From a bacterium (GTDB taxonomy: Bacteria > Spirochaetota > UBA4802 > UBA5550), in the NCBI GenBank assembly GCA_024224995.1, contig JAAENB010000023.1, positions 1 through 19,526 of the forward strand: a stretch of DNA of 19,526 nt, in the 5' to 3' direction. Made by a program: the position numbers and the translations under genes. Each line of letters starts with the position of its first letter. Within the stretch, counting starts at the first letter, position 1. Positions 1 through 19,526 of this stretch are shown piece by piece. A model generated the notes under the pieces. That model had not been told where the DNA came from, did not search any database, and saw nothing but the letters and a program-made list of their open reading frames with translations.

Positions 1-10
1 ATATCGACCC

Positions 11-189: not shown

Positions 190-262
190 GTTTAGAAAGA
201 GGATTGGGAATAAAAAGAGACTGGTTGCCGGAACTCTGTCAACTGTCAACCGCCAACTGACC

Positions 263-320: not shown

Positions 321-452
321 ATGGTATTGCGGGCTGCATCTGGTCTGGAAGTATCCCTCTTCTAAATGTGAGGACTGTTTGAGCGAAGCGAGTTCCGCAG
401 CATTTAGAAGAGGGATGCTTCCAGGCCCGCTCACTAGCAAAATTTAGTTTCT
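312..452. repeat. Long hairpin with conserved loop, copy 2
   Basis: The core stem is 345-368 against 401-424, with 23 of 24 positions pairing and the odd one a possible G-U pair. The fold extends outward through GCGGGC/GCCCGC (329-334, 425-430) and AGAAACTAAAT/ATTTAGTTTCT (312-322, 442-452). The 32-nt loop (369-400) contains GAGCGAAGCGAGTTCCG, the reverse complement of the loop of the hairpin at 11-120 with few differences. The right outer arm overlaps the last codons of the minus-strand gene ending at 434, so it may also act as its transcription terminator or mRNA-stabilising end. Confidence 0.8.
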
Positions 453-796: not shown

Positions 797-810
797 ATTT
801 AATCCTTGAT

Positions 811-1215
811 CTAATCCTCGATATTTTCTTCGAAGACCTGGATATCATGCAAATCTGTTTCTGAACCTCGTTGTTCTTTGAGGGACCGGAATAATTTTTT
901 TGAAGGACGGTACATTCGGGCGTTTTTATTTTCCGCCAGCAGGATTAATTCTTTTTCCCAGTTTTCCTGTTTTTTTACAAAATATTCGGCCGCAAAGTTT
1001 ATTGTCTCAGGGGGAAACCCGTTTTTTGCGGCGATATCCATGATCGCGATTTGATCTTTATTCGTGACCTCATTGATGGGAACAAGGTCAATATCAAGCG
1101 TTTCCCTGTTGTCTATTCCCAGGACATGGAGCAGTGAACCTCCTACCAGCAGCCAGTCGCCCTGTAAATTTTCCAGGATATCATTGTATAGCTTTATAAT
1201 ATCTTTTTGTTTCAT
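811..1215 (-). CDS. Small nucleotidyltransferase-fold protein (DUF6036/AbiEii-like)
   Basis: A 134-residue protein with the hallmark of minimal nucleotidyltransferases: VGGSLLHVLG (residues 24-33), followed by TLDIDLV (39-45) with metal-binding D41 and D43. The rest (FPPETINFAAEYF, then RMYRPSKKLFRSLKEQRGSETDLHDI) fits the DUF6036 style, a predicted NTP transferase related to AbiEii-type toxins. It is shorter than many family members, ending soon after the DLHDI segment. The substrate cannot be read from sequence: it could modify tRNA or protein, or be a degenerate regulatory fold. First gene of a two-gene unit with the 120-residue protein downstream. The start ATG has no Shine-Dalgarno sequence and lies 6 nt past a good -10 box, which suggests a leaderless transcript. 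Confidence 0.78.
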   Translation of the reverse strand: MKQKDIIKLYNDILENLQGDWLLVGGSLLHVLGIDNRETLDIDLVPINEVTNKDQIAIMDIAAKNGFPPETINFAAEYFVKKQENWEKELILLAENKNARMYRPSKKLFRSLKEQRGSETDLHDIQVFEENIED

Positions 1216-1221
1216 CCGTAT

Positions 1222-1250
1222 ATAGTACGCGACAACATCTATACCGTCAA
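1222..1250 (-). promoter_or_regulatory. Sigma70-type promoter of nucleotidyltransferase unit, probably leaderless
   Basis: Read on the minus strand: -35 TTGACG (1245-1250), 17-bp spacer, -10 TACTAT (1222-1227). Only six bases (ATACGG) separate the -10 from the ATG at 1213-1215, so the expected start of transcription is at or within a base or two of the start codon. Confidence 0.7.
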
Positions 1251-1256
1251 GAGATT

Positions 1257-3461
1257 TTAGTCACTGCTGTTCTGAGCCCCTGATGTTTCACCACTGCCGT
1301 CTTGCCAGTTCCCGGCGTCTGCCGGATTGGTGAGGACCGTTCGTTCCATGGAGAGTATTGTGCCGGAACTTCCGGCTCCCCATCCCCCTGACATGCTAAT
1401 CGTATCAATATCGGTACCGTTATATTGCAGAGTCAGATCGGCGCCGTCATTGTTTAAGCTTCCCGAATAAATTTGATCGGCTGTTTTTGTTGATACGGAA
1501 TTGTCATCGGTCCGTTCAAGTAAAAAATATGAATTCGCCGGAATGGTTCCCGTAAGATCAATGCTCATATCACCCTCAATTGACCAGGGACCAAGGACAA
1601 TGTCAGAGCCGGTATTGTTATGCAGCTCAATCCATTCATCATAGATACTGCTTGAGGTTCCGGCCCACCCGATCTCGGAGATAACAATATCCAGTACGCT
1701 AACCGGCAGGGCACCGGAAGTGTTATCGCTGCCCGGTGTGGCATAGGTATAGAGCGTATACCCGCCTTGAATATTTACCTGGGTATTGGTGGTAAACCAG
1801 TTGGCGGCTGTCTTTCCGTCCCCATATACGGCATTCCTGGCCATGCTTTTTTTAAGACCCGTAGACCCGCTGATGTTGGTCCCGGCAAAGCCGTCTCCGT
1901 CACTGCCGTCTCCGGCATAATCAATTATCGTACCATCAGGACTTTCCAGGATCAGCTCAACCCGGTCATTGGGTATGGATAAATCACTAATAACTATATT
2001 CGGAGCGGACGCATATGCCGATGAAACCATATCTTTTGTTTGAATTACCAGGGTACTGTTTGCCAATATGGTGCAGCCGCTTAAAACAAGGGGTTTCCCG
2101 CTCATGGCAGCCCCTTTAATGGCCCAGCCGCTGAGGTCAATAGTACTGCCGGTCATGTTTTTCAGTTCAATAAACTCATCCTGGTATGAAGAGGTTCCGC
2201 TGTCGTTCAGGTTTCCCATCCACATCACTTCATTGATAATTATTTCCTGGAATCCTGCTGTATCTCCCGTGGGAACAGTTGCTACGGAAGTTCCTTCATC
2301 CCAGCGGGCGTTCCATTCCTGCATATACTTTTGCGCGATCTCTTTTGAATGAATAAAGACCAGGTTCTCGTTGTTCTCTTCGTTGGCGCTGTCGCTCCAA
2401 TTGAACGATCCCGTAATAACAACAGCATCGTCCTGGTCCGCGTCCAGTATCATGGTTTTATGATGCAGTTTTCCGCCCTCACTGCCGTTTACGTGAAGAT
2501 TGCCGTCTATTTTACAGGGAATGCCCCGCTGTGCCAGGTATTCTTCGGAGCTGTTGCTTAATTGAGATTCATCAAATATTCCCTGTATGGTGATACCGTC
2601 TTTATGTTTTTGTGCCAGCTGGTCATTGAGATAGCGATGGGGAAAAGAGAATATCATAAAGTTAATAGTACTCTCCGCGGCGTCAACCTGTTCCATAACA
2701 TGGTCCATTACTCTTTTTCCGTCCAGGTACTGGGGCGCGAAAAGAACATCAACTTTTACTCCCTTGATGTTATGAGTAACAACGGAGTCGACAGCGCTTG
2801 CTCCTGAAATTTCCAGAAGGTATTCGAATTGCTGCAGGTAGGTAGCGTGAATGTTCTTGTTCTTAAAGACTATTGTGTTATTATTATTCCGTTCAAATCC
2901 GGAATCCGTAGAATTTGTTGATCCTGTGTATACGTATTTATGTCCATAGGAATCGGAAGCCAGGGCGAATTTATTGTGCATTATTGTGCTGTTATTAATA
3001 AGAATAAAGTCGTCAAACCCGGAATCCGTGGGAAAACTGGTTCTTTGTTTTCCCGATACGGGGAATTTGCTGTCCAGGGCTTCGGCTATCCGGTTATACC
3101 CGTCATAGTAGTCGCCTGTTTTGGCGGCAACATCGGCAGAACCGTCTTTATTTCCCACAAACCGTACATGAACTCCCCGGTTTACGGCGTTTTCTATTGC
3201 CTGGATAACGTTTTCCCGGTTTAAACCGTAAAAACAGAGGTCAAGATACTCATTTGTTGGGTGGTTGTTTATAAGTGATATCAGGGCGTCATCGAGATCG
3301 GGATCGCTAAAGGGATTGGTGAAATATATGGAAATAGAGTCGAAATTATAATTTTCGGCCTTTGTCAGGTCATGGAGCGATTCCCTGCACCCGTTAAAGG
3401 AAAGAAGCAGTAAAATAGCCGAAATTGCTACAGCAATGGTTTTATAGTGTTTAAATTTCAT
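1257..3461 (-). CDS. Phospholipase D-like lipoprotein with two lamin-tail domains
   Basis: 734 residues. The N-terminus is a lipoprotein signal (LLSFNGC, lipid-bearing Cys25), so the product should be anchored outside the inner membrane. Two HKD-type segments follow: HNK at 162-164 with TGSTN after it, and a canonical HHKTMILD at 333-340 with TGSFNW after it. In the first motif the Asp is shifted by one (HNKFALASD), so that half may be modified. After the catalytic part come two lamin-tail (LTD) beta-sandwich domains, roughly 405-575 (IIINEVMWMG...DEFIELKN) and 590-720 (IVISEIGWAG...DEWIELHN). PLD plus LTD architectures occur in secreted nucleases and phosphodiesterases; the LTDs probably bind surfaces or polymers. 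The substrate (DNA or phospholipid) is not decided by the sequence. Start supported by the signal peptide and a promoter 36 nt upstream. Confidence 0.85.
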   Translation of the reverse strand: MKFKHYKTIAVAISAILLLLSFNGCRESLHDLTKAENYNFDSISIYFTNPFSDPDLDDALISLINNHPTNEYLDLCFYGLNRENVIQAIENAVNRGVHVRFVGNKDGSADVAAKTGDYYDGYNRIAEALDSKFPVSGKQRTSFPTDSGFDDFILINNSTIMHNKFALASDSYGHKYVYTGSTNSTDSGFERNNNNTIVFKNKNIHATYLQQFEYLLEISGASAVDSVVTHNIKGVKVDVLFAPQYLDGKRVMDHVMEQVDAAESTINFMIFSFPHRYLNDQLAQKHKDGITIQGIFDESQLSNSSEEYLAQRGIPCKIDGNLHVNGSEGGKLHHKTMILDADQDDAVVITGSFNWSDSANEENNENLVFIHSKEIAQKYMQEWNARWDEGTSVATVPTGDTAGFQEIIINEVMWMGNLNDSGTSSYQDEFIELKNMTGSTIDLSGWAIKGAAMSGKPLVLSGCTILANSTLVIQTKDMVSSAYASAPNIVISDLSIPNDRVELILESPDGTIIDYAGDGSDGDGFAGTNISGSTGLKKSMARNAVYGDGKTAANWFTTNTQVNIQGGYTLYTYATPGSDNTSGALPVSVLDIVISEIGWAGTSSSIYDEWIELHNNTGSDIVLGPWSIEGDMSIDLTGTIPANSYFLLERTDDNSVSTKTADQIYSGSLNNDGADLTLQYNGTDIDTISMSGGWGAGSSGTILSMERTVLTNPADAGNWQDGSGETSGAQNSSD

Positions 3462-3497
3462 TTTAACAGCCTTTTGTATATTCTTTATATAAGAATA

Positions 3498-3526
3498 AAG
3501 ATACTAAAATTTTTTCCTGCTGTCAA
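3498..3526 (-). promoter_or_regulatory. Sigma70-type promoter of PLD lipoprotein gene
   Basis: On the minus strand: -35 TTGACA (3521-3526), 17-bp spacer, -10 TATCTT (3498-3503), 36 nt before the ATG at 3459-3461. It is divergent from the promoter of the ATPase/RloB unit. Confidence 0.65.
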
Positions 3527-3579
3527 TAGATAGGGAATGAACGCTAACTGGGGGGCAATGAACAACAGTCTTTTTTCTA

Positions 3580-3596
3580 GCGTGAAATAATCACGC
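3580..3596. promoter_or_regulatory. Upstream palindromic operator-like site, GTGA-N5-TCAC
   Basis: GCGTGAAATAATCACGC is a palindrome whose core GTGAAATAATCAC (3582-3594) matches the core GTGAAAATATCAC at 3655-3667 in both arms. The core centres are 73 bp apart, close to seven helical turns, so a repressor dimer on each could face the same side and loop across the promoter at 3623-3651. The cognate regulator is not identified in the window. Confidence 0.6.
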
Positions 3597-3622
3597 AAGT
3601 GTGTGTTTTTTTGTTTTAATGC

Positions 3623-3651
3623 TTGACGAAAGAGGTTGTTTTTGTTATATT
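3623..3651 (+). promoter_or_regulatory. Strong sigma70-type promoter of ATPase/RloB operon
   Basis: -35 TTGACG (3623-3628), 17-bp spacer, -10 TATATT (3646-3651), followed by a short leader to the ATG at 3683. It is bracketed by two similar palindromes (3580-3596 and 3655-3667). Confidence 0.75.
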
Positions 3652-3654
3652 GAA

Positions 3655-3667
3655 GTGAAAATATCAC
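3655..3667. promoter_or_regulatory. Downstream palindromic operator-like site at transcription start
   Basis: GTGAAAATATCAC sits 3 nt past the -10 box, over the expected transcription start of the ATPase/RloB operon, where a bound repressor would block RNA polymerase. It shares its arms with the site at 3582-3594. Confidence 0.6.
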
Positions 3668-3682
3668 GTAAGGAGGGGCGGC

Positions 3683-5050
3683 ATGCTGGTTAGATTTGTT
3701 ATTGAGAATGTATTCTCATTCGGTGAAAGGAAAGAATTTACCACTATTCCAAATAATCGTCTAAAAACACTGGACAATCACAAATACAATGTAAATGGGA
3801 TTGATCTATTGAAAACATGTGCTATTTATGGGGCAAATGGTGCTGGTAAGTCTAATCTTATAAAATCATTGCTATTGCTTCAAAAATTAGTTCTCAGGGA
3901 AGAAATGTCTTTTAGAGTAAACAGGACTCAATTTAAGTTTAATTCTGAAAGTGACAATAAAAAACAAATTTTTGCAGTTGAATTTATTCAGGAAAATACA
4001 GCCTTTTATTACGGAATTGAACTTTTGGATGATCTAATCGTAACAGAGGAGTTGTATTTATCCGGCCTGGGCAAAAAAGAAGACAAACTTATCTTTGAAC
4101 GCAAAACGGATGAAAATGAGAGTACTAAAATTACCTTTCCGGAAGAGTTTGAGAAAGATGAAAAAAGTCAAATATTAAAATCTGTTCTACTGGAAGAATT
4201 TATCAACCCCGATGAGCCTGTACTGAAACTTATATCAAATAGAGAGAATAAATTTTTAAGTGATGTAAAGAAAGCTTTTCGTTGGTTTGAAGACACTCTT
4301 CAAATAATGACTCCTCAGTCAAGGCCAATAGTTCTGGTTCATAAACTGGAACAAGATAAGGAATTCAAAAGGTATGCAGAAGATATTCTTCGTTCATTTA
4401 ATATCGGAATTACTTCGTTAACATCAGAAAAAAAAGAGATTAAAGATTTTTTTGGTGAGGAGCATCAAGAATTTGTTGAAAGAGTATCCAGGGATGTTGA
4501 AAAGTCTCAAGACAACATGCTTTGTTTATTAAGCGAGAATGCAGGCGAAATTCTATTCGAAAAAGAAGACGGAAAAATATGGGCTAAAATACTTAAAGTC
4601 GGACACATTGGAAAAAACGATAAACCGGTTTTATTTGAATTAGAAGAAGAATCCGATGGCACAATACGGCTTCTGGATTTTATTCCGGCATTTCAAGAAA
4701 TGATTAATGAAAATAAGGTGTTTTTCATAGATGAAATTGAAAGGAGTATTCATCCGCTCCTTATAAAAGAATTAGTAAAAAAGTTTTCTTTAGATACCCG
4801 GACAATGGGACAATTAATGTTCACCACACACGAATCAAATTTGCTCGACCAGGAAATCTTTAGACAAGATGAAATATGGTTTGCAGAAAAAGACAAAAAT
4901 GGCTCTACAGATTTATATTCTATAAGTGATTTCAAAGAACATAAAACTACCGACATCCGCAAAGGATATTTAAATGGGCGTTATGGTTCAATACCGTTTT
5001 TAGCAAATCTGCGAGACTTGAATTGGCATCAATATGATACTGACAAATAG
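3683..5050 (+). CDS. AAA_15-type ATPase, AbiLi/RloA-like
   Basis: 455-residue SMC/ABC-like ATPase. Visible motifs: Walker A GANGAGKS (50-57), a signature-like SDGTIRLL (324-331), Walker B VFFIDEIE (346-353) with the catalytic Glu351, and the H-loop TTHES (His383). Between Walker A and the signature lies a long charged helical insert, as in OLD-family and AbiLi ATPases. It overlaps the following RloB gene by 17 nt. An AAA_15 ATPase followed by RloB is the arrangement of abortive-infection AbiL (AbiLi + AbiLii) and RloAB modules. The ATPase would be the sensor or activator and RloB the likely effector. It starts at an ATG preceded by AAGGAGG. Base composition is clearly AT-richer than neighbouring envelope genes, which suggests horizontal transfer. 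Assignment to AbiL rather than a sister ATPase-TOPRIM system rests on the partner. Confidence 0.85.
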   Translation: MLVRFVIENVFSFGERKEFTTIPNNRLKTLDNHKYNVNGIDLLKTCAIYGANGAGKSNLIKSLLLLQKLVLREEMSFRVNRTQFKFNSESDNKKQIFAVEFIQENTAFYYGIELLDDLIVTEELYLSGLGKKEDKLIFERKTDENESTKITFPEEFEKDEKSQILKSVLLEEFINPDEPVLKLISNRENKFLSDVKKAFRWFEDTLQIMTPQSRPIVLVHKLEQDKEFKRYAEDILRSFNIGITSLTSEKKEIKDFFGEEHQEFVERVSRDVEKSQDNMLCLLSENAGEILFEKEDGKIWAKILKVGHIGKNDKPVLFELEEESDGTIRLLDFIPAFQEMINENKVFFIDEIERSIHPLLIKELVKKFSLDTRTMGQLMFTTHESNLLDQEIFRQDEIWFAEKDKNGSTDLYSISDFKEHKTTDIRKGYLNGRYGSIPFLANLRDLNWHQYDTDK

Positions 5051-5708
5051 ACTTTTTGAAAGGAAACCACCTGGTAGAGAAGCAAAAAGTATCTATATTT
5101 TCTGTGAAGGCGCTAAAAGAGAATATCAATATTTTGAATATTTCAAAGAAATGGACTCTCGAATCAATGTTGAGATTTACAAACTACACCCACATGAAGA
5201 CAACTCTCCTCTTGGTTTGCTTACTATTGCAAAGAAATGTATTATCGCTAATGAAGAGAGTCCTATACCAAAATATATGTTCCAGGAGAATGATGAAGTC
5301 TGGATAGTGCTGGATACAGACATAGATAAAGATGAATCTCGCAAGCCGCAAATAAAACGAGTTAATGATGAATGTGAACTAATGCCGGATTGGTTTGTTG
5401 CTCAAAGCAATCCTTGCTTTGAGGTGTGGCTGTATTATCATTTTTGCTCTGATAAGCCTGTTTTTGTCGGCAATGAATACTGTATTAATTGGAAAGATTT
5501 GGTCAATAAATCTATAAGCGGTGGGTTTGATTCCAGGAAACATCCTATTTTTATAGAAAGCGCAAGTGAAAATGCAGAAAAAAATTTTGAGTCAAAAGCA
5601 GGTGAACCAACTATCGGAAGCACTGAAGTTTTTAAATTATCAAAAAGTATCTTTTCCCTGGTGAAAACAAAAATAGAAAGGGTTCTGGAACAAATAGACT
5701 CCAATTGA
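5034..5708 (+). CDS. RloB-family protein, AbiLii-like putative effector
   Basis: 224 residues matching RloB. It has an N-terminal YIFCEGAKREYQYFEYF (21-37), where the CEG glutamate (Glu25) corresponds to the TOPRIM-like acidic position. A central VWIVLDTDID (89-98) has three aspartates, and the family signature SNPCFEVWLYYHF is at 125-137. These motifs fit a TOPRIM-related nuclease fold. The ATG at 5034 lies inside the end of the ATPase gene, giving translational coupling and probably a fixed ratio of the two proteins. Within AbiL/RloAB it is the presumed toxic or nucleolytic component. Its substrate is not established from sequence; tRNA or other nucleic acid is possible. The gene is complete, AT-rich like its partner, and ends 28 bp from the convergent TPR gene. 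No tRNA or tRNA fragment lies beside the module. Confidence 0.85.
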   Translation: MILTNRLFERKPPGREAKSIYIFCEGAKREYQYFEYFKEMDSRINVEIYKLHPHEDNSPLGLLTIAKKCIIANEESPIPKYMFQENDEVWIVLDTDIDKDESRKPQIKRVNDECELMPDWFVAQSNPCFEVWLYYHFCSDKPVFVGNEYCINWKDLVNKSISGGFDSRKHPIFIESASENAEKNFESKAGEPTIGSTEVFKLSKSIFSLVKTKIERVLEQIDSN

Positions 5709-5736: not shown

Positions 5737-7074
5737 TTATTTCCCCTGATCCTCGGCTTTTGCGTCGGTCATGGCTCTGAGCAGGGCTGCGAGAGCATTT
5801 ATTTTCCCAGTGTCGGTATCGCATTCCAGTGCCGTAGAATAGGCTTTATCATATTCACCAATCTTTGCCAGATCGTTTGAAATCTCCAGCAAAAGGTTGG
5901 GTTTAAATCTGGAATCTTCAATTTTCTTAATGAATCTGCGGGCCTGGTCCCATGTTTTTACAGCCCGGTCTTTTTGCCCTTCTTCCGCAAAGGTTTTTCC
6001 GATATCTAATAAGGCACGTGATTTTTCATAGGGTTTGGTCATTTTTTCAGTTATTGCAAGGGCTTTTTTCCATATTTTGTGAGCCCGGTCTTTTTCCCCG
6101 GCTTGGGAAAGTGCTTTTTTTAACTCTATAAAGGCAAAGTAATCTCCCCGGGACTCGTCAATGCCTTGAATTAATTCCAGTGCTTCATCCCATATTTTTA
6201 TGGCCCGGTCTTTTTTCCCGGCTTTCGCAAAGGCTTTTCCTGTTTTTATTAAAACTATGGATTTATGATAGGAATCTCTTATGCTCTCAGCCACGGTGAG
6301 GGCTTGCTCCGGCTTTCCTGCATAGGCAATGGCCATTGCTAAACTAGACAGGGTATGGGTTCTCGATGAAGGAATTGTTTTTAAACCCTTATAGTCAATA
6401 GCGGCCTTGTGGGCTTCATTCAATATTATCATGGCCCGGTCTTTTTCCCCTGCTTCCGCAAGTGCATTTCCGATTATTGTCAGGTAACGGCATTTATAAT
6501 AAACATCCGTAATTTTTTCAGCAAAGCCGCGTGCTTCTTCCCATATTTTTAGAGCCCTGTCTTTTTCTCCTGCCCGGGCAAGTACTTTTCCGATCTCTGC
6601 CAGAACAAATGGGGGGTCAATGCCTTCCGGTAAGGCCTTAGCCGTAGTGCGTGCTTCATCCCATATTTTTATGGCCCTGTCCTTTTCCCCTGCTTTTAAA
6701 AAGACTTTTCCAATCATTATCAAGGCCAAGGATTTTTGGAAGGAACCTGGCTGGCTCACTATTGTTTTGAGGGCTTCGTTTTTTTTCCCTGCTTTCGCGA
6801 GATCTATCGCAGTATCCGCTAAGATAGCGTTTTTAGTTTCGGAATCTTTACTGCTCTCAGCCATTTTACGGGCTTTTTCAAAGTCACCATTTCTTGAAAA
6901 TACTGCGGCGCATTGATGTAAAACCGGGCGATCAAAATTTCTATCGCATAAACGGGTTAATTGCCGGTTAACCTTATTGGGAAGACTCTGAGTGCCAAAC
7001 CATAATGCAAAGCCTCCCGAAAGAAGAAGCAGCGAAGGAGTGAGGATGAAGATACTTTTTTTCATTTTATTCAT
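5737..7074 (-). CDS. Membrane-anchored tetratricopeptide-like repeat protein
   Basis: 445 residues. A hydrophobic stretch at about 7-27 (IFILTPSLLLLSGGFALWFG) acts as a signal anchor, with the rest probably exported to the periplasm. The remainder consists of helical hairpin repeats of about 40 residues with the motif AGEKDRAxKIWxEA. Eight or nine units are recognisable (such as AGEKDRAIKIWDEAR, AGEKDRALKIWEEAR, EGQKDRAVKTWDQAR). They are TPR-like, with Ala-Gly turns and the IGKxxAxAG helix. DNA repeats every 120 nt in places (near 5950, 6072 and 6192, and near 6541 and 6661), so recent duplication is likely. Such proteins are scaffolds for protein binding; no enzyme motif is seen. No clear Shine-Dalgarno precedes the ATG, and Met4 is an alternative start. 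It is monocistronic and convergent with the RloB gene. Confidence 0.8.
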   Translation of the reverse strand: MNKMKKSIFILTPSLLLLSGGFALWFGTQSLPNKVNRQLTRLCDRNFDRPVLHQCAAVFSRNGDFEKARKMAESSKDSETKNAILADTAIDLAKAGKKNEALKTIVSQPGSFQKSLALIMIGKVFLKAGEKDRAIKIWDEARTTAKALPEGIDPPFVLAEIGKVLARAGEKDRALKIWEEARGFAEKITDVYYKCRYLTIIGNALAEAGEKDRAMIILNEAHKAAIDYKGLKTIPSSRTHTLSSLAMAIAYAGKPEQALTVAESIRDSYHKSIVLIKTGKAFAKAGKKDRAIKIWDEALELIQGIDESRGDYFAFIELKKALSQAGEKDRAHKIWKKALAITEKMTKPYEKSRALLDIGKTFAEEGQKDRAVKTWDQARRFIKKIEDSRFKPNLLLEISNDLAKIGEYDKAYSTALECDTDTGKINALAALLRAMTDAKAEDQGK

Positions 7075-7081
7075 GTTTCTT

Positions 7082-7110
7082 GTTATAACGGAGTATTGGT
7101 AAATTGTCCA
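7082..7110 (-). promoter_or_regulatory. Promoter of TPR gene, near-leaderless
   Basis: Minus strand: -35 TGGACA (7105-7110), 17-bp spacer, -10 TATAAC (7082-7087). The ATG (7072-7074) begins 7 nt after the -10 with no ribosome-binding site, so the transcript would begin at or next to the first codon; if Met4 is used, the leader is about 9 nt. Confidence 0.55.
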
Positions 7111-7160
7111 GAAATTTTTTTTACGATAGTTCTGAATTATTCGTTCTTAACCGAATTGTC

Positions 7161-7190
7161 TTGACTTTTTGCAATTATAATGCTTAAATT
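7161..7190 (+). promoter_or_regulatory. Possible promoter of solute-binding lipoprotein gene
   Basis: -35 TTGACT (7161-7166), 18-bp spacer, -10-like TAAATT (7185-7190). The gene's ATG at 7235 has GGAGG 10 nt upstream. The -10 is weak, so the exact boxes are uncertain. Confidence 0.4.
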
Positions 7191-7234
7191 ATAGAAGATC
7201 TTATTGATATAATAATTTTGGAGGTTTTTGAGTT

Positions 7235-8074
7235 ATGAAAAAATTATCCCTATTGGTCATTGTTATACTATCAGCAGCGCTCCTGTTCTCATGCGGCAAG
7301 AAAAAGGAAACAAAAGATGAAGATGCACCAGGTACTGTTGATACAAGCAATACTGTAAATTTAATTACAGTACGAGCAGATAGCTGGCCGCCTTATAATG
7401 GAGATCCCAATTCACCCAATCCGGGCTATATGGTAGAGGTGGTAAATCAAATTTTCAAAAAAGAAGGATTCCTTATCGATTATAAATTGATGCCCTGGAA
7501 TAGAAGTCTCAAAGAGGTTGAAAGAGGAAAATATGATGCGGTACTAGGTGCCAGTGTTGAATGCGCAAAATGCGTAACACCGAAAGAACCAATTCAAACC
7601 TTTCAAAATCGCTTTTTTGTTAAAAAGGGATCAAAATGGCGATTTAAAAATATCAAGTCACTTGAAAACAAGAGTGTTGGTGTTATTGCAGATTACAGCT
7701 ATTCTTCATCCTTTGATAAATATCTGGAAAAAAATAAAAAGGACAGCAAAAGGATTGCTATTATGTTTGGAGATCTTTCACTGCAGAAAAATATCAAAAA
7801 ACTCCTTTCCGGTCGAGTCGATATAATTCTCGAAAATCCTGTTGTTCTCCGGTGGGAGATGAAAACCATAGGAGTAATGGATGATGAAATCATTGACGCA
7901 GGAATGCTTTCTGATAGCAAAGACAATCTTTACATGAAATTTTCTCCGGCAAGCAACAAAAAAGCAACATCGGAAAAATACTCAGCTCTGTTTGACAAAG
8001 GCATAAAGGCAATGAGAAAGTCCGGTGAACTGGGAAAAATACTTAAGAAGTATAATATGAAGGATTGGAAATAA
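7235..8074 (+). CDS. Extracellular solute-binding lipoprotein (SBP_bac_3 type)
   Basis: 279 residues with a lipoprotein signal ending LLFSCG (Cys20) and a Lys/Glu/Asp-rich tether (21-40). The mature part shows features of family 3 solute-binding proteins: a first beta strand and ligand loop ITVRADSWPPYNG (44-56), GYMVEVVNQIF (64-74), PWNRSLKEVERGKYDAVLG (87-105), then SLENKSVGVI and VDIILENP of the second lobe. These bind polar amino acids or small organic acids and normally feed an ABC transporter or a sensor kinase. No permease or ATPase lies beside it, so it is an orphan here. An unusual CAKC pair (110-113) could form a disulfide. It ends at a strong hairpin shared with the convergent ceramidase gene. 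Confidence 0.8.
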   Translation: MKKLSLLVIVILSAALLFSCGKKKETKDEDAPGTVDTSNTVNLITVRADSWPPYNGDPNSPNPGYMVEVVNQIFKKEGFLIDYKLMPWNRSLKEVERGKYDAVLGASVECAKCVTPKEPIQTFQNRFFVKKGSKWRFKNIKSLENKSVGVIADYSYSSSFDKYLEKNKKDSKRIAIMFGDLSLQKNIKKLLSGRVDIILENPVVLRWEMKTIGVMDDEIIDAGMLSDSKDNLYMKFSPASNKKATSEKYSALFDKGIKAMRKSGELGKILKKYNMKDWK

Positions 8075-8090
8075 AAAATAGTTCCTTTTT

Positions 8091-8156
8091 CATAGCGTGG
8101 GTTTAAAACCCCTCGCAGGGGTCGCACCCCTCGCAGGGGTCGCGCCCCACGCTATG
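8091..8156. terminator. Bidirectional terminator-like hairpin with tandem 18-bp repeat
   Basis: Outer arms CATAGCGTGGG (8091-8101) and CCCACGCTATG (8146-8156) pair perfectly. Inside are two exact tandem copies of an 18-bp unit (8108-8125 and 8126-8143), each containing its own hairpin CCCCTCGCAGGGG. A T-run (about 8167-8174) lies just after it on the plus strand, and a run of T read on the minus strand's other side lies at 8083-8090. It separates two convergent genes, which fits a shared terminator. Confidence 0.65.
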
Positions 8157-8176
8157 AGAATGGAGATTTTTTTTGC

Positions 8177-10405
8177 CTATTGAACAGTAAAGCTGTTGCT
8201 TACCCCCGTATATTCACTGATGTTCCCGGTCCACCCCGATTTCCAATTACCGTAATGACGAAGCCGGTAAGTACCCGCTTCTGCCGACTCGGGAATTGCC
8301 CAGGAAATGGTGATGAGCGAGTATGAAACACTATTCCGGTTCCACCGGTACTCCGTTTCCGGGTCATTATCCGTGGCAATGGTTTCCCACTCATTGCTCG
8401 CGGAGAGTTTTTCAACAGCAAGAAATGATTTCATATGACGCACATCATTATTCGGGTGGGCACCCCAGAAAACAGCACTGGCCACGGGTGCGTTTGTTCT
8501 GTTATACGAAGAGTCGGGCTGGGATTTTACCGTACCCCAACTCTTAAAAGGGGGTTTATCGTCCAGGATAACATTACCCACAATTATTACCTGCTCACTT
8601 AAGCGGTCCTCAATGGAATCAATGCCAAGGGCATAAGAGGGAAGGGCGATAGAAGAATCAAAAGTGTTTGCCAGGTCATTAACCATTTCCCTGATCCCGT
8701 TCAGGGTATAGGGACCAAAGACATTTGAACCGCCTTCGTACTGTTGTGACGCGTACTCCTCGCGGGTGGTGAGGTAGCGGCAGTCGCTTCCGGAGAGAGC
8801 GGCTATTTCAACATGAGTAACATCGGGGAGTACTGTTTTCAGTTCGGCCCTGATCCTTCTTCCGGCCATGGTAGAGACCTCAAAGGGCAGCCCCACAATG
8901 GCAAAGGAGCCGATCTTGATAATCTGTATGGCGTGTTTCGTAGCCCAGGCATCCTCACCGGGTAAAATGACCGTGCCGGAATCGAAGGCAAGAAAGGGAA
9001 CCTTTTCCAGCTGGCAATTTCTTTCATCCTGAGCGTCATCGGCACCCAGGGTGAGCCCCAGGAGGATATCGAGCGCTCCCGGCAGGGAGCCTGTGAGGCA
9101 GTCACCATAATCATTATTTTCAGACACATCCCGGGAGCATCCTTCGTTCTCGATCAGGCCGCTGTCGCCATCTTCAGTTGAACCTGCCGTAAGTGCCAGG
9201 CCCACAGTGCCGGTACAGAGCCTGCAGTTGTTTATATCTTCGTAAACCGGGTCAACACCGCTGTACATGACCTGATGGGGCTCAATATATTCGGAAGAAA
9301 TACTAAAATTTTTAAAATCGACAAACATCTGCCGGTATTCAACAGTACCGGAAAGTTCAGTAAGGGCATTGCTGTTGAGTGAATCGGCCAGGGCAAAGGC
9401 GGTTTCGGCCCGTAATTTGACCCGTTCATAATCATGGTCGCCTAATGCGGGGTAGTCCCCTTTGCTGTTTAACGAAGCACCGAAGTACGCGGCATCCTCG
9501 GGAAGGTTTCCGGAAGTATCGCCGCAATCACTCATGCCCATGGCAGCCACATAGGATGTTTCGGAAAGATCGCTCTTTCCTTTTTCCAGAAGGTATTCCG
9601 TATAGCCGATAATATCGCCATTCACCAGGTTCAGGTTAGCGCCGCTTACATTGGGATGTATTGGAGCCCAGCTATATATGCCGATATCACTTCCATTGTC
9701 TGCGGTGAATTTAAGCAGAGACATCCGCCGGTTGGTGTCTTCTTCTGTGCCGTCTTCGTTAAGATAGCTGCTTCTTTCGGAAGCCGGGTTAAGAACATAT
9801 GCCTCAGGCGAGCGCTGGCGGCTGATGCGGCTGTTTGTCTCAGAGGAAAACTTACCGGAGTTTAGATATATTTTTCCGGGGGTGAGGTTATTATGAGCCC
9901 GCTCAATGGATTCAACAATACCGTTTACAAGAATCTCAAAGTTTTTTTCGCAGAAACCCAGACCCATGACGGCATTGATAGCCCATTCGAAGAAATAGCC
10001 GCCCGGCCCGCTGTGGGTATGGGTGGCGCTGAGGAGTACATTTTTTTCGGTATACAGATCGCCGTATTTTTCTTTAAGCTTATTGATAACATAGAGCTGT
10101 ACACCCTGAGACATGGTACCGATATCGGCATTAACCATAACCACGCTATTGTTGTTTCGCGTGTCTTTAATAATAAAGGCCCGGGAAAATTGTCTCATCT
10201 TAATTCCTTCGCCTTTCTGGCTGGTATTAACATACCCCACAAACATAACCTCTGCCGGAGCCAGGGTAATATCATAAATACCGGCGCCAAGCATATAGTT
10301 TGATGACCCTTCTGTGGAAGCTGATCCTGAATTATTGGGAACGCTGTCGCAGGAGATAAATACTGTAAAAATTGCTAACATCACTAAGAATTTTTTTAAT
10401 TGCAT
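8177..10405 (-). CDS. Neutral ceramidase-family lipoprotein amidase
   Basis: 742 residues from the chosen start. An in-frame ATG 14 codons upstream lies within an operator palindrome, whereas this ATG has AGAGG 8 nt upstream and directly begins a lipoprotein signal (VFISC, Cys19). It belongs to the neutral/alkaline non-lysosomal ceramidase family. The zinc-binding HTHSGPGGY is at 129-137, NSRISRQRSPEAY at 191-203, a further histidine loop IHPNVSG at 249-255, and CGDTSGN at 294-300. The last aligns with the family's amidase hexapeptide GDVSPN and gives Ser298 as nucleophile; two positions differ. The C-terminal beta-sandwich domain (HPNNDVRHMKSFLAVEK...) is present. The family hydrolyses the N-acyl bond of ceramides; an acyl-amide lipid is the likely substrate class. 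Probably acts at the cell surface or in the periplasm. Length is typical or slightly long. Confidence 0.88.
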   Translation of the reverse strand: MQLKKFLVMLAIFTVFISCDSVPNNSGSASTEGSSNYMLGAGIYDITLAPAEVMFVGYVNTSQKGEGIKMRQFSRAFIIKDTRNNNSVVMVNADIGTMSQGVQLYVINKLKEKYGDLYTEKNVLLSATHTHSGPGGYFFEWAINAVMGLGFCEKNFEILVNGIVESIERAHNNLTPGKIYLNSGKFSSETNSRISRQRSPEAYVLNPASERSSYLNEDGTEEDTNRRMSLLKFTADNGSDIGIYSWAPIHPNVSGANLNLVNGDIIGYTEYLLEKGKSDLSETSYVAAMGMSDCGDTSGNLPEDAAYFGASLNSKGDYPALGDHDYERVKLRAETAFALADSLNSNALTELSGTVEYRQMFVDFKNFSISSEYIEPHQVMYSGVDPVYEDINNCRLCTGTVGLALTAGSTEDGDSGLIENEGCSRDVSENNDYGDCLTGSLPGALDILLGLTLGADDAQDERNCQLEKVPFLAFDSGTVILPGEDAWATKHAIQIIKIGSFAIVGLPFEVSTMAGRRIRAELKTVLPDVTHVEIAALSGSDCRYLTTREEYASQQYEGGSNVFGPYTLNGIREMVNDLANTFDSSIALPSYALGIDSIEDRLSEQVIIVGNVILDDKPPFKSWGTVKSQPDSSYNRTNAPVASAVFWGAHPNNDVRHMKSFLAVEKLSASNEWETIATDNDPETEYRWNRNSVSYSLITISWAIPESAEAGTYRLRHYGNWKSGWTGNISEYTGVSNSFTVQ

Positions 10406-10428
10406 AAATAGCCTCTTATAGTATCGCA

Positions 10429-10446
10429 TGAGTGAGTAATCACTCA
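10429..10446. promoter_or_regulatory. Palindromic operator upstream of ceramidase gene (TetR-like)
   Basis: TGAGTGA-GTAA-TCACTCA is a perfect 7-bp inverted repeat with 4-bp centre. It lies between the -10 box (10467-10472) and the ATG, in the position of a repressor site. TGANTGA-N4-TCANTCA palindromes are typical of TetR/AcrR regulators, several of which respond to acyl lipids. No TetR gene lies in the window. Confidence 0.65.
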
Positions 10447-10466
10447 CTAGATTGTAGATTAAGTGT

Positions 10467-10496
10467 AGTTTATCACCTACAATTTTAATCTGTCAA
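10467..10496 (-). promoter_or_regulatory. Promoter of ceramidase gene
   Basis: Minus strand: -35 TTGACA (10491-10496, full consensus), 18-bp spacer, -10 TAAACT (10467-10472). Downstream are the TGAGTGA palindrome and the AGAGG ribosome-binding site. Confidence 0.6.
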
Positions 10497-10558
10497 CACA
10501 AAAGAGCGTCCGGCCGGTCTTTTTTTTGTATCTTTATAAAAACCCGCAGGAATGCTGT

Positions 10559-11359
10559 TTAGGGATTTTTTATTTGATCAACCACTGATTGAATAACCAG
10601 TCCCGCAATGGTAAAGCCAAATATGGCGGTAATATGGGCAATTGACCCGTTGATCTGTGCTTTGAGGCTGCACCACTCGTGGTCCGTCAGGCCGGGGTCG
10701 CCGGGGCCGTTTTCCGATTTTGGGCATACACAGTCTGCGCTTCCGCAGGCGGTTTCCACGTTCTGCCGGGGCAGCATTTCGTTGCTGAATACACAGAGGA
10801 AATTTTTGTTTATTCTCCGTTTTCGAAGGGCTTTGCGTACTTCCCGCGCAAGGGGACAGCCCTCGGTTTTCCAGATGCCTGCTGTTTGTATGCGCGACGG
10901 GTCCAGTTTTAGAGCGGCTCCCATTGAGGCAAAGAGGGTGCCCCTGCATTCCAATGCTGTTTCTATTAAGTGTATTTTATTGCTCAGGCTGTCTATGGCA
11001 TCGATAATATAGTCATATGAATCCAGGTTAAAGGAGGCGGAAGTCTCTTTGCTGTATATTCTCTGGGCGGCTTCAATCTCGGCGTCGGGATTTATATCAA
11101 GCAGCCTTTTCTTGAGCGTTTCTACTTTTACTTCCCCAACGGTAGATGCGGTTGCCTGTAGCTGGCGGTTGATATTTGTGGCGCAAACCCTGTCTGAGTC
11201 TACAATGGTGAGCTGCCCAATCCCGCTCCGCACCAGGCTTTCTGCGCACCAGCTTCCCACGCCGCCAACACCAAAGAGAATAACCCTGGTTTGGGAAAGT
11301 TTTTTTGCGGCTTCTTCTCCCAGGAGAAGAAGGGTTCTGTGTGAATATGCTTCTTTCAT
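10559..11359 (-). CDS. tcdA: tRNA threonylcarbamoyladenosine dehydratase
   Basis: 266 residues, matching the usual 265-270 of TcdA (CsdL), an E1/ThiF-like enzyme. It uses ATP to cyclise t6A at position 37 of ANN-decoding tRNAs to ct6A in the cytoplasm. Motifs: nucleotide loop GVGGVGSW (30-37), VDSDRV (53-58), NINRQ (62-66), DAID (120-123), MGAALKLDPSRI (146-157), and the C-terminal GSIAHITAIFGFTIAG (238-253). A further in-frame ATG lies 32 codons upstream, but the chosen ATG begins the conserved protein and has AAGGA 9 nt before it, so I use it. Monocistronic. It may be a chromosomal backbone gene between accessory regions. Confidence 0.93.
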   Translation of the reverse strand: MKEAYSHRTLLLLGEEAAKKLSQTRVILFGVGGVGSWCAESLVRSGIGQLTIVDSDRVCATNINRQLQATASTVGEVKVETLKKRLLDINPDAEIEAAQRIYSKETSASFNLDSYDYIIDAIDSLSNKIHLIETALECRGTLFASMGAALKLDPSRIQTAGIWKTEGCPLAREVRKALRKRRINKNFLCVFSNEMLPRQNVETACGSADCVCPKSENGPGDPGLTDHEWCSLKAQINGSIAHITAIFGFTIAGLVIQSVVDQIKNP

Positions 11360-14538: not shown

Positions 14539-15078
14539 TTAAGGAATTCTATCAATATACGTAGGATCATATTTAATCCTTTTTTCCATACATGCTGTTG
14601 AAACATTGTAGCATGGAGCTAATTTTAATGCTAACCTGTCAATAGCATAATCTAAATATGTATTACGGTCTATCTTATTTTCTTTTGCATTATTAATTAA
14701 TTCCATAATTGCATTTAATTCATTTGAAAAATTATCTTTTAAATGATAATCCGGGATTAATATATACGATGCAAAAGAATATGCCTGAAATTCAAGCTTG
14801 CTATGTGTTGTGTCGTTAAGTGATTGGTATATGCCCATCCACTCTTCCGGTTTATCGAAAGTAATCATCTCATAAAAATTTTTATGTAAATAATAATGGC
14901 CTATTTCATGAGCTATAGAAAATCTATACCTGGTTTCATAATTAAAATATACGTTTTGGTCAACATATATTGTTTTTAAGTCGTTTGAGAGAAACGCCTC
15001 AATGTGATATACATCTTGCAGATTGGGGATTGGAACAATATCAATCCCCAACTCACTTTCAACATTTATCTTCATCAA
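14539..15078 (-). CDS. ImmA/IrrE-type metallopeptidase
   Basis: 179 residues from the TTG at 15076-15078; the following ATG (15073-15075) is an equally possible start, and AGGAG lies 9 to 12 nt before them. The zinc peptidase motif HEIGH is at 57-61 (SIAHEIGHYYLH), with the supporting segment KLEFQAYSFASYILIP further on, whose Glu is the probable third ligand. These proteins (ImmA, IrrE, gamma-peptidases) cleave or sense a partner repressor, often in response to DNA damage or phage. Here the partner is clearly the XRE regulator directly upstream: the gap is only 5 nt, and the ribosome-binding site lies within the end of the XRE gene. AT-rich, suggesting mobile origin. Confidence 0.85.
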   Translation of the reverse strand: MMKINVESELGIDIVPIPNLQDVYHIEAFLSNDLKTIYVDQNVYFNYETRYRFSIAHEIGHYYLHKNFYEMITFDKPEEWMGIYQSLNDTTHSKLEFQAYSFASYILIPDYHLKDNFSNELNAIMELINNAKENKIDRNTYLDYAIDRLALKLAPCYNVSTACMEKRIKYDPTYIDRIP

Positions 15079-15083
15079 TAAGA

Positions 15084-15455
15084 TCAGCTCCTTTTGATAA
15101 GATCAATTAATTCATTAAGCTTATCTTCCGGTACTTTTTCTCCTCGTAATGTCCTGAAAAATAATGGTAATTTTTCAACAACTTGTTCGTTATTCAGGAT
15201 TTCAGCAGGAATTTCCCCTCTACATGCGGCTGCATAATCAAAAAATTTTATCCAATCATCTGTTCCTTCTTCTATCTTCAGAGCAATTGCGTATTTTTCC
15301 AATTCTTTTTTTCCCGGAGGACTTAACAATCCTCTTTCCATTTTTGAAATATTACCCGGATCAAACTTGTTGTTCATGCAAAATTGTCGTAATGATTGTT
15401 CTAATTCCAATCTTTTTTCTTTGAAAAATTTTCCAAACAATTCCTTCGCTTTCAT
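15084..15455 (-). CDS. XRE-family transcriptional regulator
   Basis: 123 residues. An N-terminal helix-turn-helix of the Cro/C1 type covers about 8-62 (LEQSLRQFCMNNKFDPGNISKMERGLLSPP; the recognition helix contains GNISKMERG). A helical C-terminal half (DWIKFFDYAAACRGEIPAEI...LPLFFRTLRGEKV) probably dimerises or binds the peptidase. It is a DNA-binding repressor whose activity is probably controlled by the adjacent ImmA/IrrE-type protein. The ATG has GAGG 8 nt upstream. Its own promoter is overlaid by a perfect 9-bp inverted repeat at 15474-15496, the likely autoregulatory operator. Confidence 0.85.
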   Translation of the reverse strand: MKAKELFGKFFKEKRLELEQSLRQFCMNNKFDPGNISKMERGLLSPPGKKELEKYAIALKIEEGTDDWIKFFDYAAACRGEIPAEILNNEQVVEKLPLFFRTLRGEKVPEDKLNELIDLIKRS

Positions 15456-16178: not shown

Positions 16179-17594
16179 ATGTACATCAAAAGTGCACATA
16201 TCAAAGGCATCAAATGTTTTGAAAATATCGACCTGGAATTCAAGAACGCGAAACAAACAGGCGATCCGCAGTCCAACTGGAACGTAATACTTGGCGACAA
16301 CGGAGACGGCAAAACCACTCTCTTACGAGCCATAGCCGCCGGTCTTATGGATGCGGCCACGGCCGAACGCCTTCTTGACATGAAGAATTTGATTCGAGAA
16401 AAGGAAAGCACAGCAAGCATCCTGGTAAAATGGTTATGGCAGCAAGGCGACCAATTGCCTGATAATTCAAAAAACGGAGACAGGAAAAAATTAACTGTTC
16501 ATTACCTGGTTGCCGGGGAAGGGTCGGCTCTCGGCAGAGATGAACAGGCCGAATATTTTTCTTCTGCAAGGATTATCGATCCTACTTCTGTTAATAAAAA
16601 GTATTTCTCTGGTGATTCAGGAAGTTTTGACAAAATTTCCACTGACCTCGATTTTTTAAAACGTAATGTCTGGAAGATGGAAAATATAGGATGGATTAGC
16701 TGTGGTTATGGTCCGTTTCGACGAGCTGTTGGCCCATCCACCGATACGATAAAAATTGAAGACCAGTTACAGGAGCGTTTCCTGACCCTTTTCCACGAGG
16801 GTGCAGCATTGACTGAATGCGAGAGCTGGCTAAAGGATCTGGAGCGCAGGGCGTTGAAAGGCGGTAAGGATTCCGGACAGAAAAAAATATTCAACGAGGC
16901 CATGTTAATTATCAAAGAATTGTTGCCCAATGTGGATGAAATTATTATTGAGGATACTGTACTATTTAAATGGCGCGGCAGCAGCGTTAGTCTGCGCCAG
17001 TTAAGTGATGGCTACAGAAGCATGTTTGTTTTTATTGTTGATATGCTTCACTGGTTTGAAAAACTCAAATTGCCGGAAACCGGTTTTCGTGAGGTAAATG
17101 GTGTTGTATTGATCGATGAGATCGACGCTCACCTGCATCCTCACTGGCAGCGTAAAATTGGTTTCGAATTAATCAAAATTTTTCCGAACATTCAGTTTAT
17201 CGTGACAACGCACAGTCCTTTTGTGGCTATGGCCGCTGGTACTGGTGCGCTAACTGTGCTTGAGAAAATAAAGGATGATGCGGTAACTGCGAACAGGAGC
17301 ATCGAGAGCCCGCGCGGCTGGGCTGTGGATCGTGTGCTCACGAACCTGTTCGGAATGGAAAGCCTCCGCGATCAGGACACTGCCGAAAAACTAATCAAAT
17401 ATGATGAGCTGATCCTGGCACAGCAGAGCGGCGAAATTTCTGTAAATGAAATAAAGGAACTGGATAAGCTGAAATCGACATTGAATGAACGGTTGATGGG
17501 AGAATGGGAGGCGCCCAAAAATAAGCAGCTTGAAAAAGATCTTGCTTTTTTCGCACGTTCTTATCGAAAAAAAATGGAATCTGAGGATGCTTAA
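16179..17594 (+). CDS. PtuA-like AAA/ABC-type ATPase of a Septu-like module
   Basis: 471 residues from the chosen ATG, which has AAGGA 8 nt upstream; a longer frame starts at a TTG inside an inverted repeat and adds 15 non-conserved residues. Motifs: MYIKSAHIKGIKCFENIDLEF start strand, Walker A GDNGDGKTT (39-47), CGYGPFRR (175-182), signature LSDGYRSM (275-282), Walker B VVLIDEIDAHLHP (309-321, Asp313/Glu314) and H-loop TTHSPF (343-348). The Q-loop region and middle insert fit SMC/RecF-like defence ATPases such as PtuA of Septu and retron-linked PtuAB. It would be the cytoplasmic ATP-dependent sensor or controller of the nuclease next to it. Its last 8 nt overlap the start of the HNH-NACHT gene, so the two are translationally coupled. 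No reverse transcriptase lies in the 16 kb upstream. Confidence 0.85.
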   Translation: MYIKSAHIKGIKCFENIDLEFKNAKQTGDPQSNWNVILGDNGDGKTTLLRAIAAGLMDAATAERLLDMKNLIREKESTASILVKWLWQQGDQLPDNSKNGDRKKLTVHYLVAGEGSALGRDEQAEYFSSARIIDPTSVNKKYFSGDSGSFDKISTDLDFLKRNVWKMENIGWISCGYGPFRRAVGPSTDTIKIEDQLQERFLTLFHEGAALTECESWLKDLERRALKGGKDSGQKKIFNEAMLIIKELLPNVDEIIIEDTVLFKWRGSSVSLRQLSDGYRSMFVFIVDMLHWFEKLKLPETGFREVNGVVLIDEIDAHLHPHWQRKIGFELIKIFPNIQFIVTTHSPFVAMAAGTGALTVLEKIKDDAVTANRSIESPRGWAVDRVLTNLFGMESLRDQDTAEKLIKYDELILAQQSGEISVNEIKELDKLKSTLNERLMGEWEAPKNKQLEKDLAFFARSYRKKMESEDA

Positions 17595-19526
17595 AGTAAT
17601 TAAACCCGGTCTGCCTCATGAGCTGGAAGATGAGTTAAACACACGGCAGGAAAACGTAAATGCAGGCACTGTGGGGAAAACTGACCCCTGGACAGCATTT
17701 ACAAGTTATGAAAATGGTCGTGAAGACAGGGGACACCCCACAGTGAGAGCAGTACTGAGAGAAGCATTCAGCGGAAAATGCGCTTATTGTGAAAGCGGCG
17801 ATGCCCAAACTGTTGATCATTATATTCCACAAAAACCAACTGACGCAAACGATAATAGAGGCAGCGATAAATTTACATTTGATTGGGAAAATTTGCTATG
17901 GTCATGCAATACGTGTAATAATAAGAAGCGCTCAAACATGGAGTGGATTGACAGGGAACCCAAGCTGCTCAATCCCAGTAAGCATACGGACGATCCCCTC
18001 TGCTATTTTTCAATAGATACGGAATTCGTCATTGGGCATATTCAGCTACGTGGCGGGATTAATGAAATAGCCCATACTCGAGCGAGTTATACGATTGATC
18101 TTTTGGAGCTTAACAATCGTAACGATCTGGTCAAAAGCCGCTACATGGCAGTTAATATGTTTGGAATACTGATTAAATTACTGAGGCTGGATGGTCCCGA
18201 TTCCAAAACAGATTGGGGCACACCCCTGCGACAAACTTTTTGTGAATTTCTGGCATCTACCAGTCCCTTTCTCGCTCCAATCAGGCAAATCCTTTGCAGA
18301 GACAATCCAGGTCTCTATAAAGAACTAATTGGAAGTATGCCGGAACTAAAATCGGTATTGGATACGTGGGCGCTTCCACCCGGGGATTGCAGTCATATCT
18401 ATGACCCGAATGCTGATAACCTGCGGGAAGAAGATGTTCAAGACGAAGATATTATTTATCCTAAAGAAAGCTATGAAAGACCGGCCGACTATCTTCCGCG
18501 CCAGGTCATGCTCAACAATGAATATACCGGTAAGGATCTGCTTGCGATAATTAAAGAAGAAAAACGCGTCGTTCTTCTGGGAGATGCGGGGGAGGGCAAG
18601 AGCACGGAGTTAAGGCGTATTGCTTCTGAGCTATCCAAACCTGGTAGTGTTTACCCTTTCCATCCATTTTTTATTGAATTGGACACTTTTGTTGACGAAA
18701 AAATTGAAGATTTAATTCCCGGTTTGCATAGAGTACCCGACAATGCTCGATGTATCATTATTGATGGACTTGACCAGGTTCAGAGTCAAAACCGCCATAC
18801 TGCAGTGCGCAGGATTGAAAGTTATTCAAGAGAACACCCCGAAGTCCGTATTCTTGTTTCCTGCCGTACGGCATTTTACCGGACCGGTACAGAAACACAT
18901 AACGCCACACTGGACGGTTTCCAGGTTTATCATTTTTTGCCCATTCGAGATCATGATATTGAATATTATATTGAGGATAAACTAGATGACACAGGTTCTG
19001 AGTTTATTGGTGAATGTATTCAATACGACCTGAAAGATCTTTTGGAAAATCCCTTTTATTTAGTAGAATTGGTCAATTTGTATAGAATTGAGAACAGAAT
19101 TCCGGGTTGGTCCCAACTTTTTGAAAGGCTGTTACACAGCAGAATGCGGCTGGATCGGGAGCAATATCGCACAAAAATTGAACTGAGCGATGAAGAGACA
19201 AAGGAAAAGATCATCAGTGAGCTTGAAAAGCTGGCCTTTGTTATGGAGACAGCCGGACAGGGCGTTATCTCGGGCAGTGAATACCGTAAAATAATATCCG
19301 ACTCAGAGACGCGTAACCTTATTGAGCATTGTACTGTTTGGCGAGGTGACCCGTCAAAGGATAGATGGACCTTTGAGCACAACAGTTTTCGGGAGTACCT
19401 GGCTGCCCGGTTCCTGGCCGGGAATTCCTTTGATGCTATCAAGAGCTTTACTGCGTACGGACACGGACCGGAGTATACACATATTAAACCCGCCTGGGCA
19501 AATTCCCTGGCTTTTTTGTTTGGAAT
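17587..19526 (+). CDS. HNH nuclease-NACHT/STAND NTPase fusion, 3' end outside window
   Basis: One frame stays open for 646 codons up to the window edge. Residues 1-130 are a PtuB-like HNH nuclease: KVIKPGLP start, CAYCES (65-70), VDHYIPQ (76-82, catalytic His78), FDWENLLWSCNTCN (98-111), then K113/K114. The two CxxC pairs would hold zinc. After a helical linker (130-320) comes a P-loop NTPase: Walker A GDAGEGKST (332-340), Walker B CIIIDGLDQ (389-397), sensor ILVSCRTAF (422-430), NPFYLVELVNLY (488-499), and FEHNSFREYLAARFL (596-610), the typical end of a NACHT/STAND module. Sensor repeats would be expected after the window. The likely role is a defence effector: ligand binding to the STAND part, with the PtuA-like ATPase, licenses DNA cleavage by the HNH domain. 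The fusion is visible; the mechanism is inferred. Confidence 0.87.
   Translation, partial: MLKVIKPGLPHELEDELNTRQENVNAGTVGKTDPWTAFTSYENGREDRGHPTVRAVLREAFSGKCAYCESGDAQTVDHYIPQKPTDANDNRGSDKFTFDWENLLWSCNTCNNKKRSNMEWIDREPKLLNPSKHTDDPLCYFSIDTEFVIGHIQLRGGINEIAHTRASYTIDLLELNNRNDLVKSRYMAVNMFGILIKLLRLDGPDSKTDWGTPLRQTFCEFLASTSPFLAPIRQILCRDNPGLYKELIGSMPELKSVLDTWALPPGDCSHIYDPNADNLREEDVQDEDIIYPKESYERPADYLPRQVMLNNEYTGKDLLAIIKEEKRVVLLGDAGEGKSTELRRIASELSKPGSVYPFHPFFIELDTFVDEKIEDLIPGLHRVPDNARCIIIDGLDQVQSQNRHTAVRRIESYSREHPEVRILVSCRTAFYRTGTETHNATLDGFQVYHFLPIRDHDIEYYIEDKLDDTGSEFIGECIQYDLKDLLENPFYLVELVNLYRIENRIPGWSQLFERLLHSRMRLDREQYRTKIELSDEETKEKIISELEKLAFVMETAGQGVISGSEYRKIISDSETRNLIEHCTVWRGDPSKDRWTFEHNSFREYLAARFLAGNSFDAIKSFTAYGHGPEYTHIKPAWANSLAFLFG

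Follow-up and report, generated by a model that had tools for sequence, protein, structure and literature searches.

The 19,526-nt contig JAAENB010000023.1 of the spirochaete assembly GCA_024224995.1, the whole of which is the window analysed here, ends with a pair of overlapping genes encoding a PtuA-like ABC/AAA ATPase (gene 1; 16179..17594, 471 amino acids from the ATG at 16179, identified by PADLOC, NCBIfam and alignment) and a predicted fusion of a PtuB-type HNH nuclease with a NACHT-type NTPase (gene 2; 17587..19526, identified by frame analysis and Pfam). All features are on the forward strand unless stated otherwise. The genes share 8 nt (ATGCTTAA, 17587..17594) holding the gene 2 ATG and the gene 1 stop codon TAA, and gene 2 then runs for 646 codons to the end of the contig without a stop, with its own end and any sensor lying beyond. 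The gene 2 ATG is directly preceded by the purine-rich TCTGAGG, at a spacing too short for a classical Shine-Dalgarno site. A single gene 2 chain scores above the Pfam cut-offs for both HNH (PF01844, 25.2 bits, cut-off 21.4) and NACHT (PF05729, 30.9 bits, cut-off 26.7). An earlier sequence-only reading had described a PtuA-like ATPase overlapping the next gene by 8 nt, an N-terminal PtuB-like HNH domain with its characteristic motifs, and an HNH–NACHT frame without a stop, and the start and stop positions, the motifs and the domain matches reported here bear out all three.

Gene 1 was recognised as PtuA by the PADLOC model PDLC00269 (E 1.6e-84) and matched the NCBIfam PtuA model NF041760 (E 5.4e-44) with 151 bits, where the equivalog cut-off is 500. 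In an alignment of 40 sequences, comprising the window PtuA and 39 relatives of 40–55% identity, the window protein retains every invariant residue, among them those of Walker A (GDNGDGKTT, residues 39–47, 16293..16319; G39, N41, G42, G44 and K45), an ABC signature-like motif (LSDGYRS, residues 275–281, 17001..17021; S276, G278, Y279 and R280) and Walker B (LIDEID, residues 311–316, 17109..17126; D313 and E314). A PtuA-family ATPase with intact Walker A and B motifs, and ptuA followed by ptuB as adjacent genes, are features of Septu that are present at this locus.

So is a PtuB-family HNH nuclease, which occupies residues 1–268 of gene 2 (17587..18390) with its H-N-H and zinc cysteine residues intact according to both alignment and structure comparison. 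The residues invariant among 18 PtuB sequences include the zinc-type cysteine pair of CAYCE (residues 65–69, 17779..17793; C65 and C68), the HNH catalytic histidine of VDHYIP (residues 76–81, 17812..17829; H78) and W100, N102, C107, C110 and N111 of WENLLWSCNTCN (residues 100–111, 17884..17919). The fusion contains a whole PtuB beyond the HNH core, with the free PtuB proteins of relatives stopping just ahead of the position of the linker, and PtuB chains ranked first when the AlphaFold2 (AF2) model of the fusion was searched with Foldseek; model and structure comparison place PtuB at residues 1–264. As PtuB is a free-standing protein in Septu whereas here it continues into an NTPase, we regard the locus as a Septu variant and not as plain Septu.

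An acidic and, by the model, disordered linker at about residues 269–301 (18391..18489; AF2 per-residue confidence, pLDDT, below 50 at residues 265–314) joins PtuB to the C-terminal half, which the sequence evidence identifies as a NACHT/STAND NTPase. The NACHT core spans residues 327–464 (18565..18978), and an alignment with four relatives places Walker A at residues 332–340 (GDAGEGKST, 18580..18606; G, G and K338 invariant) and Walker B at residues 390–397 (IIIDGLDQ, 18754..18777; D393 and D396). Beyond the core lies the motif FEHNSFREY (19372..19398), whose F, H, N and E are shared by all five sequences, and by comparison with nucleotide-binding leucine-rich repeat receptors (NLRs) this region is probably winged-helix-like. 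When the five-sequence profile was compared with solved chains, NLRC4 entries came top (E 5.7e-6, profile positions 42–344). Named defence proteins were matched as follows: the NACHT part matched Avs4 with E 0.0057 in PADLOC and at rank 22 in Foldseek (E 0.04, using a low-confidence model), and residues 320–613 matched the EruA model NF058535 with E 8.9e-15 and 53.9 bits, where the equivalog cut-off is 1000 and a truncated protein is being compared with a model of 1318 positions.

Given the base composition, random sequence would keep a frame of 646 codons open with a probability of about 6e-18, and the last 378 codons by themselves with one of about 8e-11. The PtuB part has a GC content of 0.444 and the sequence following it one of 0.438 (0.403 and 0.415 at third codon positions). 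The codon-usage distance between the PtuB part and the rest of the gene is 0.143, which neither helps nor hurts the case for a single gene because it falls within the range of 0.12–0.20 for other genes of the contig. Three in-frame start codons occur between 18301 and 18600, by eye none of them with a well-spaced ribosome site (GGAAG lies a single base upstream of the ATG at 18337), and it is conceivable that an internal start also yields a shorter NACHT protein.

We looked for a second instance of the fusion in several sequence collections. The protein searches covered proteins of about 355–1,130 amino acids, a range that a full-length relative (about 1,400) would exceed, and found only gene 2 itself and the fragment P0002 with gene 2 as query (7,994 candidates scored, the upper limit of the search), and only the query itself with residues 1–268 (768 candidates). 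A scan of genome contigs with gene 2 gave 23 stretches matching a pattern, none encoding a relative. We also searched whole genomes with gene 2 as query, in sets of 13, 251, 201, 296, 297, 200, 149 and 103 genomes (1,510 in total, with at least the seven centre genomes counted twice) at E limits of 1e-3, 1e-6 or 1e-5, with the 149-genome set giving no match and showing nothing alone. These located 48 distinct HNH places, none of which reached the NACHT part, and three NACHT places, none of which reached the HNH part. All except one of the HNH places lay in frames of no more than 490 amino acids, and the 490-amino acid frame itself (L223) is an ordinary PtuB with its frame open upstream. The remaining frame, of 746 amino acids, is an HNH–PtuA fusion from a Septu locus with three consecutive nuclease-bearing genes (L206, 5972–9900), in which the HNH–PtuA single chain (742 amino acids, PDLC00292, E 3.6e-216) is followed after 6 nt by a PtuB gene (297 amino acids, PDLC00319, E 1.5e-115) and then by an HNH_2 gene (265 amino acids). 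Among plasmids, 11 records matched gene 2, none over 80% of the query, and 37 matched the PtuB part, none labelled as NACHT (judged by label); the NACHT part matched ten records and L205, a NACHT relative described below, matched 32. One phage record matched gene 2 in the NACHT half only, and there were no matches in viral contigs.

The neighbourhoods of ptuA gave the same picture. We surveyed the best 80 of 563 genome loci found with the PtuA alignment (28–40% identical to the window PtuA), and 76 of these had an HNH frame after ptuA, ending 524–962 nt beyond it, with no HNH match in the other four (L005, L009, L010 and L076). No NACHT was found by phmmer with the NACHT part in these 80 genome loci or in 80 viral ptuA loci, although with this query NACHT frames were detected in two further loci. 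An open reading frame followed ptuB in 57 of the 80 genome loci (23 had none); 25 of the 72 Pfam families of these following genes were listed, and NACHT was not one of the 25. Closer PtuA relatives exist among metagenome proteins (84 proteins listed, P0004–P0087, of 38–54% identity), with neighbourhoods outside this survey except probably that of P0065, which seems to be locus L001. The sequence-only reading had proposed a search for the same domain order next to PtuA in other genomes, and within the scope covered here none was found. Its view that the architecture belongs to no named system is in line with these searches and with the open-access literature, in which we found neither a PtuB–NACHT fusion nor a paper on EruA or HyoA (subscription papers and preprints being outside the scope); it should be noted that proteins above about 1,130 amino acids were outside the main protein search.

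The nearest relatives of the NACHT part are L194, L205, L161 and P0002, with 29–35% identity over the core (29–32% for L194 and L205). P0002 is a fragment matching the NACHT half and is annotated with PF19964, which we take to be an effector-associated domain. L194 combines a metallophosphoesterase with NACHT (at least 1,396 amino acids; positions 1–4191, with a long C-terminal region, from a clone that is labelled as human faecal phage), and L205 combines a DUF4062-like domain (19.3 bits, cut-off 24.7) with NACHT in 1,412 amino acids (6355–10593, where the N-terminus also matches the PADLOC candidate PDC-S60 with E 2.5e-23). L161, from a Bacteroides ovatus plasmid, has 1,329 amino acids and an N-terminus without a named domain. 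We had considered this plasmid as carrying the ancestor of the fusion in the form of a three-gene PtuA–PtuB–NACHT operon and rejected this, as the upstream genes encode a DUF234-type ATPase and a protein without a family match. L161, L194 and L205 extend for hundreds of residues past the NACHT core, by about 850 residues in the case of L194 and L205. No PtuA was seen beside any of these three in the stretches read, which for L194 reached only about 1 kb past the gene. This NACHT group seems to exchange N-terminal domains and looks rare, as the NACHT profile at E 1e-15 matched one of 247 genomes in the phylum of G009 (the match, in G698, being L205, which is itself in the profile) and none of 118 genomes in the phylum of G002, a zero-match search that shows nothing alone. 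At E 1e-20, seven of 117 genomes in the phylum to which G008, from a cyanobacterium, belongs gave distant matches only, of no more than 85 bits.

Several kinds of known system can be compared with this locus. In Escherichia coli Septu, ptuA and ptuB are reported to suffice for defence, and the system was not set off by the phage tail sheath tested (PMC13096335). PtuA and PtuB are also the effectors of type I-A retrons (Ec78/Eco7 and Ec83), and those of Retron-Eco7 are described as causing growth arrest and tRNA-Tyr depletion jointly and not singly, with the reverse transcriptase and msr-msd neutralising PtuAB (PMC11555353); in retron Ec83, the multicopy single-stranded DNA (msDNA) is said in a review to keep PtuAB arrested until phage infection (PMC12948488). 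Here, the control module would instead be a STAND NTPase in the same chain as PtuB, and in the window, which ends within gene 2, Rfam at its gathering thresholds detected no retron RNA and no reverse transcriptase was found among the open reading frames scanned, which did not include all small ones. Bacterial NACHT proteins are described as having their effector at the N-terminus and their sensor at the C-terminus, with bNACHT25 using an N-terminal nuclease (PMC12169576). The order of N-terminal effector and NACHT core with Walker A and B motifs is common to bNACHT, Avs and the NCBIfam families EruA and HyoA, but here the effector is PtuB and a neighbouring gene encodes PtuA. L194 and L205 belong to the same NACHT group but carry N-terminal domains different from PtuB, without PtuA seen alongside, while the HNH–PtuA single-chain Septu (PDLC00292, as in L206) is also a PtuB-type HNH fusion, though to the ATPase PtuA and not to a STAND NTPase.

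We somewhat favour the interpretation that this is a Septu-type nuclease of PtuA and PtuB, with PtuB turned into the effector at the N-terminus of a NACHT/STAND switch. Taken together, the retron control of PtuAB and the effector and sensor layout of the bNACHT proteins make a NACHT switch as the controller the simplest reading. While the cell is at rest, the fusion protein would be inactive and ADP-bound, held in this state by a C-terminal sensor lying beyond the contig, until a phage product bound the sensor and led the NACHT part to exchange nucleotide and oligomerise. This would gather several PtuB domains on the PtuA ATPase scaffold, where the HNH nuclease could cleave DNA or tRNA and so abort the infection, with the STAND part doing the triggering job that the complex of reverse transcriptase and msDNA does in retron PtuAB. 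We infer oligomerisation by nucleotide, assembly with PtuA, the DNA or tRNA target and abortive infection from analogy with these systems. The proposal of the sequence-only reading that the STAND part could take over from the retron or another trigger is plausible, and it is about an even call whether this amounts to a STAND-gated Septu. In such a system the PtuAB nuclease would be put together when needed by a pathogen-sensing NACHT carried on PtuB, in place of a trigger from a retron or from PtuA, with PtuAB serving as a general-purpose head for different sensors.

Several observations weigh against a NACHT-controlled PtuAB. There is a single truncated instance, on one contig from which the sensor is missing, and no second fusion emerged from the protein, genome, plasmid, phage and viral searches. 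The NACHT Walker B has a Q where all four aligned relatives have E. The solved Septu complex is reported to have a PtuA:PtuB ratio of 6:2 (PMC12948488), an assembly in which a bulky NACHT on each PtuB may or may not fit. In the Foldseek comparison NLRP14, NLRP2, NLRP7 and NLRC4 followed directly behind the PtuB chains, with E values of 3e-3 to 9e-3 and TM-scores of just 0.09–0.15, and VIA-align placed no NLR among the 50 matches listed. AF2 modelled the NACHT part poorly within the fusion, and the NACHT half modelled alone had a mean pLDDT of 39.3. The structural check proposed by the sequence-only reading has thus supported the HNH part and left the NACHT part with a poor model, and because of this low confidence we base the NACHT identity on sequence evidence.

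Of the other explanations, the one that survives best has the STAND part as an accessory, with PtuA sensing infection as in plain Septu and NACHT only tethering, clustering or tuning PtuB. PtuA is fully intact and an E. coli Septu is reported to defend with ptuA and ptuB as its only genes (PMC13096335), but the NACHT part shares its Walker A and sensor arginine with the relatives, favouring a working NTPase over a tether, and proteins of the same NACHT group bear different N-terminal domains as stand-alone sensors do, and we consider an accessory role doubtful. We find it rather improbable that a bNACHT defence protein borrowed an HNH effector and that the adjoining PtuA gene is an unneeded leftover: while the fusion has the usual STAND order of effector then NACHT, all alignment-invariant residues are kept in PtuA, its gene has its last 8 nt in common with the fusion gene, the fusion holds a whole PtuB and not the HNH core alone, and PtuA or PtuB of Retron-Eco7 singly are reported to give no growth arrest (PMC11555353). 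An artefact, be it a rare broken locus or an assembly that joined fragments unrelated to each other, would account for the single contig and single instance and is nonetheless unlikely, as a random join would have to hit, in frame, the gap of some 40 codons that separates the complete PtuB and NACHT modules, with even GC across the junction and catalytic motifs intact on either side.

The contig also carries a likely second defence pair (3683–5708), in which an AAA_21 ATPase (PADLOC AbiLi, E 5.8e-76) overlaps an RloB-like protein (AbiLii, E 1.1e-24), and with the PtuA/PtuB–NACHT and AbiLi/AbiLii-like pairs it is a defence neighbourhood. Divergent from ptuA on the reverse strand (14539–15455) is a gene for an IrrE-like protein (Peptidase_M78, 41.9 bits; capP-like in PADLOC), preceded by a gene for a small protein that resembles a helix-turn-helix regulator by eye and has no Pfam match; this pair could regulate the ptuA cassette or be part of another element. 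Further away on the reverse strand, a lipoprotein-like protein (1257–3461) has PLD-type phosphodiesterase stretches and lamin-tail domain stretches, two of each.

Within the searches made, the combination of PtuB with NACHT looks new and both halves are of known kinds. The suggestion of an undescribed anti-phage system is stronger than the evidence allows; we make no claim of a new system because there is one truncated instance and each half is of a known kind. What the locus may represent is a known defence that is set off in a new way. The trigger of Septu is not settled in the parts of the work cited here, and a chain joining PtuB to an NLR-like sensor would offer a handle on it. If the interpretation is correct, the fusion would link the effectors of Septu and retrons with the bacterial NLRs, and PtuAB would be a module placed under different triggers.

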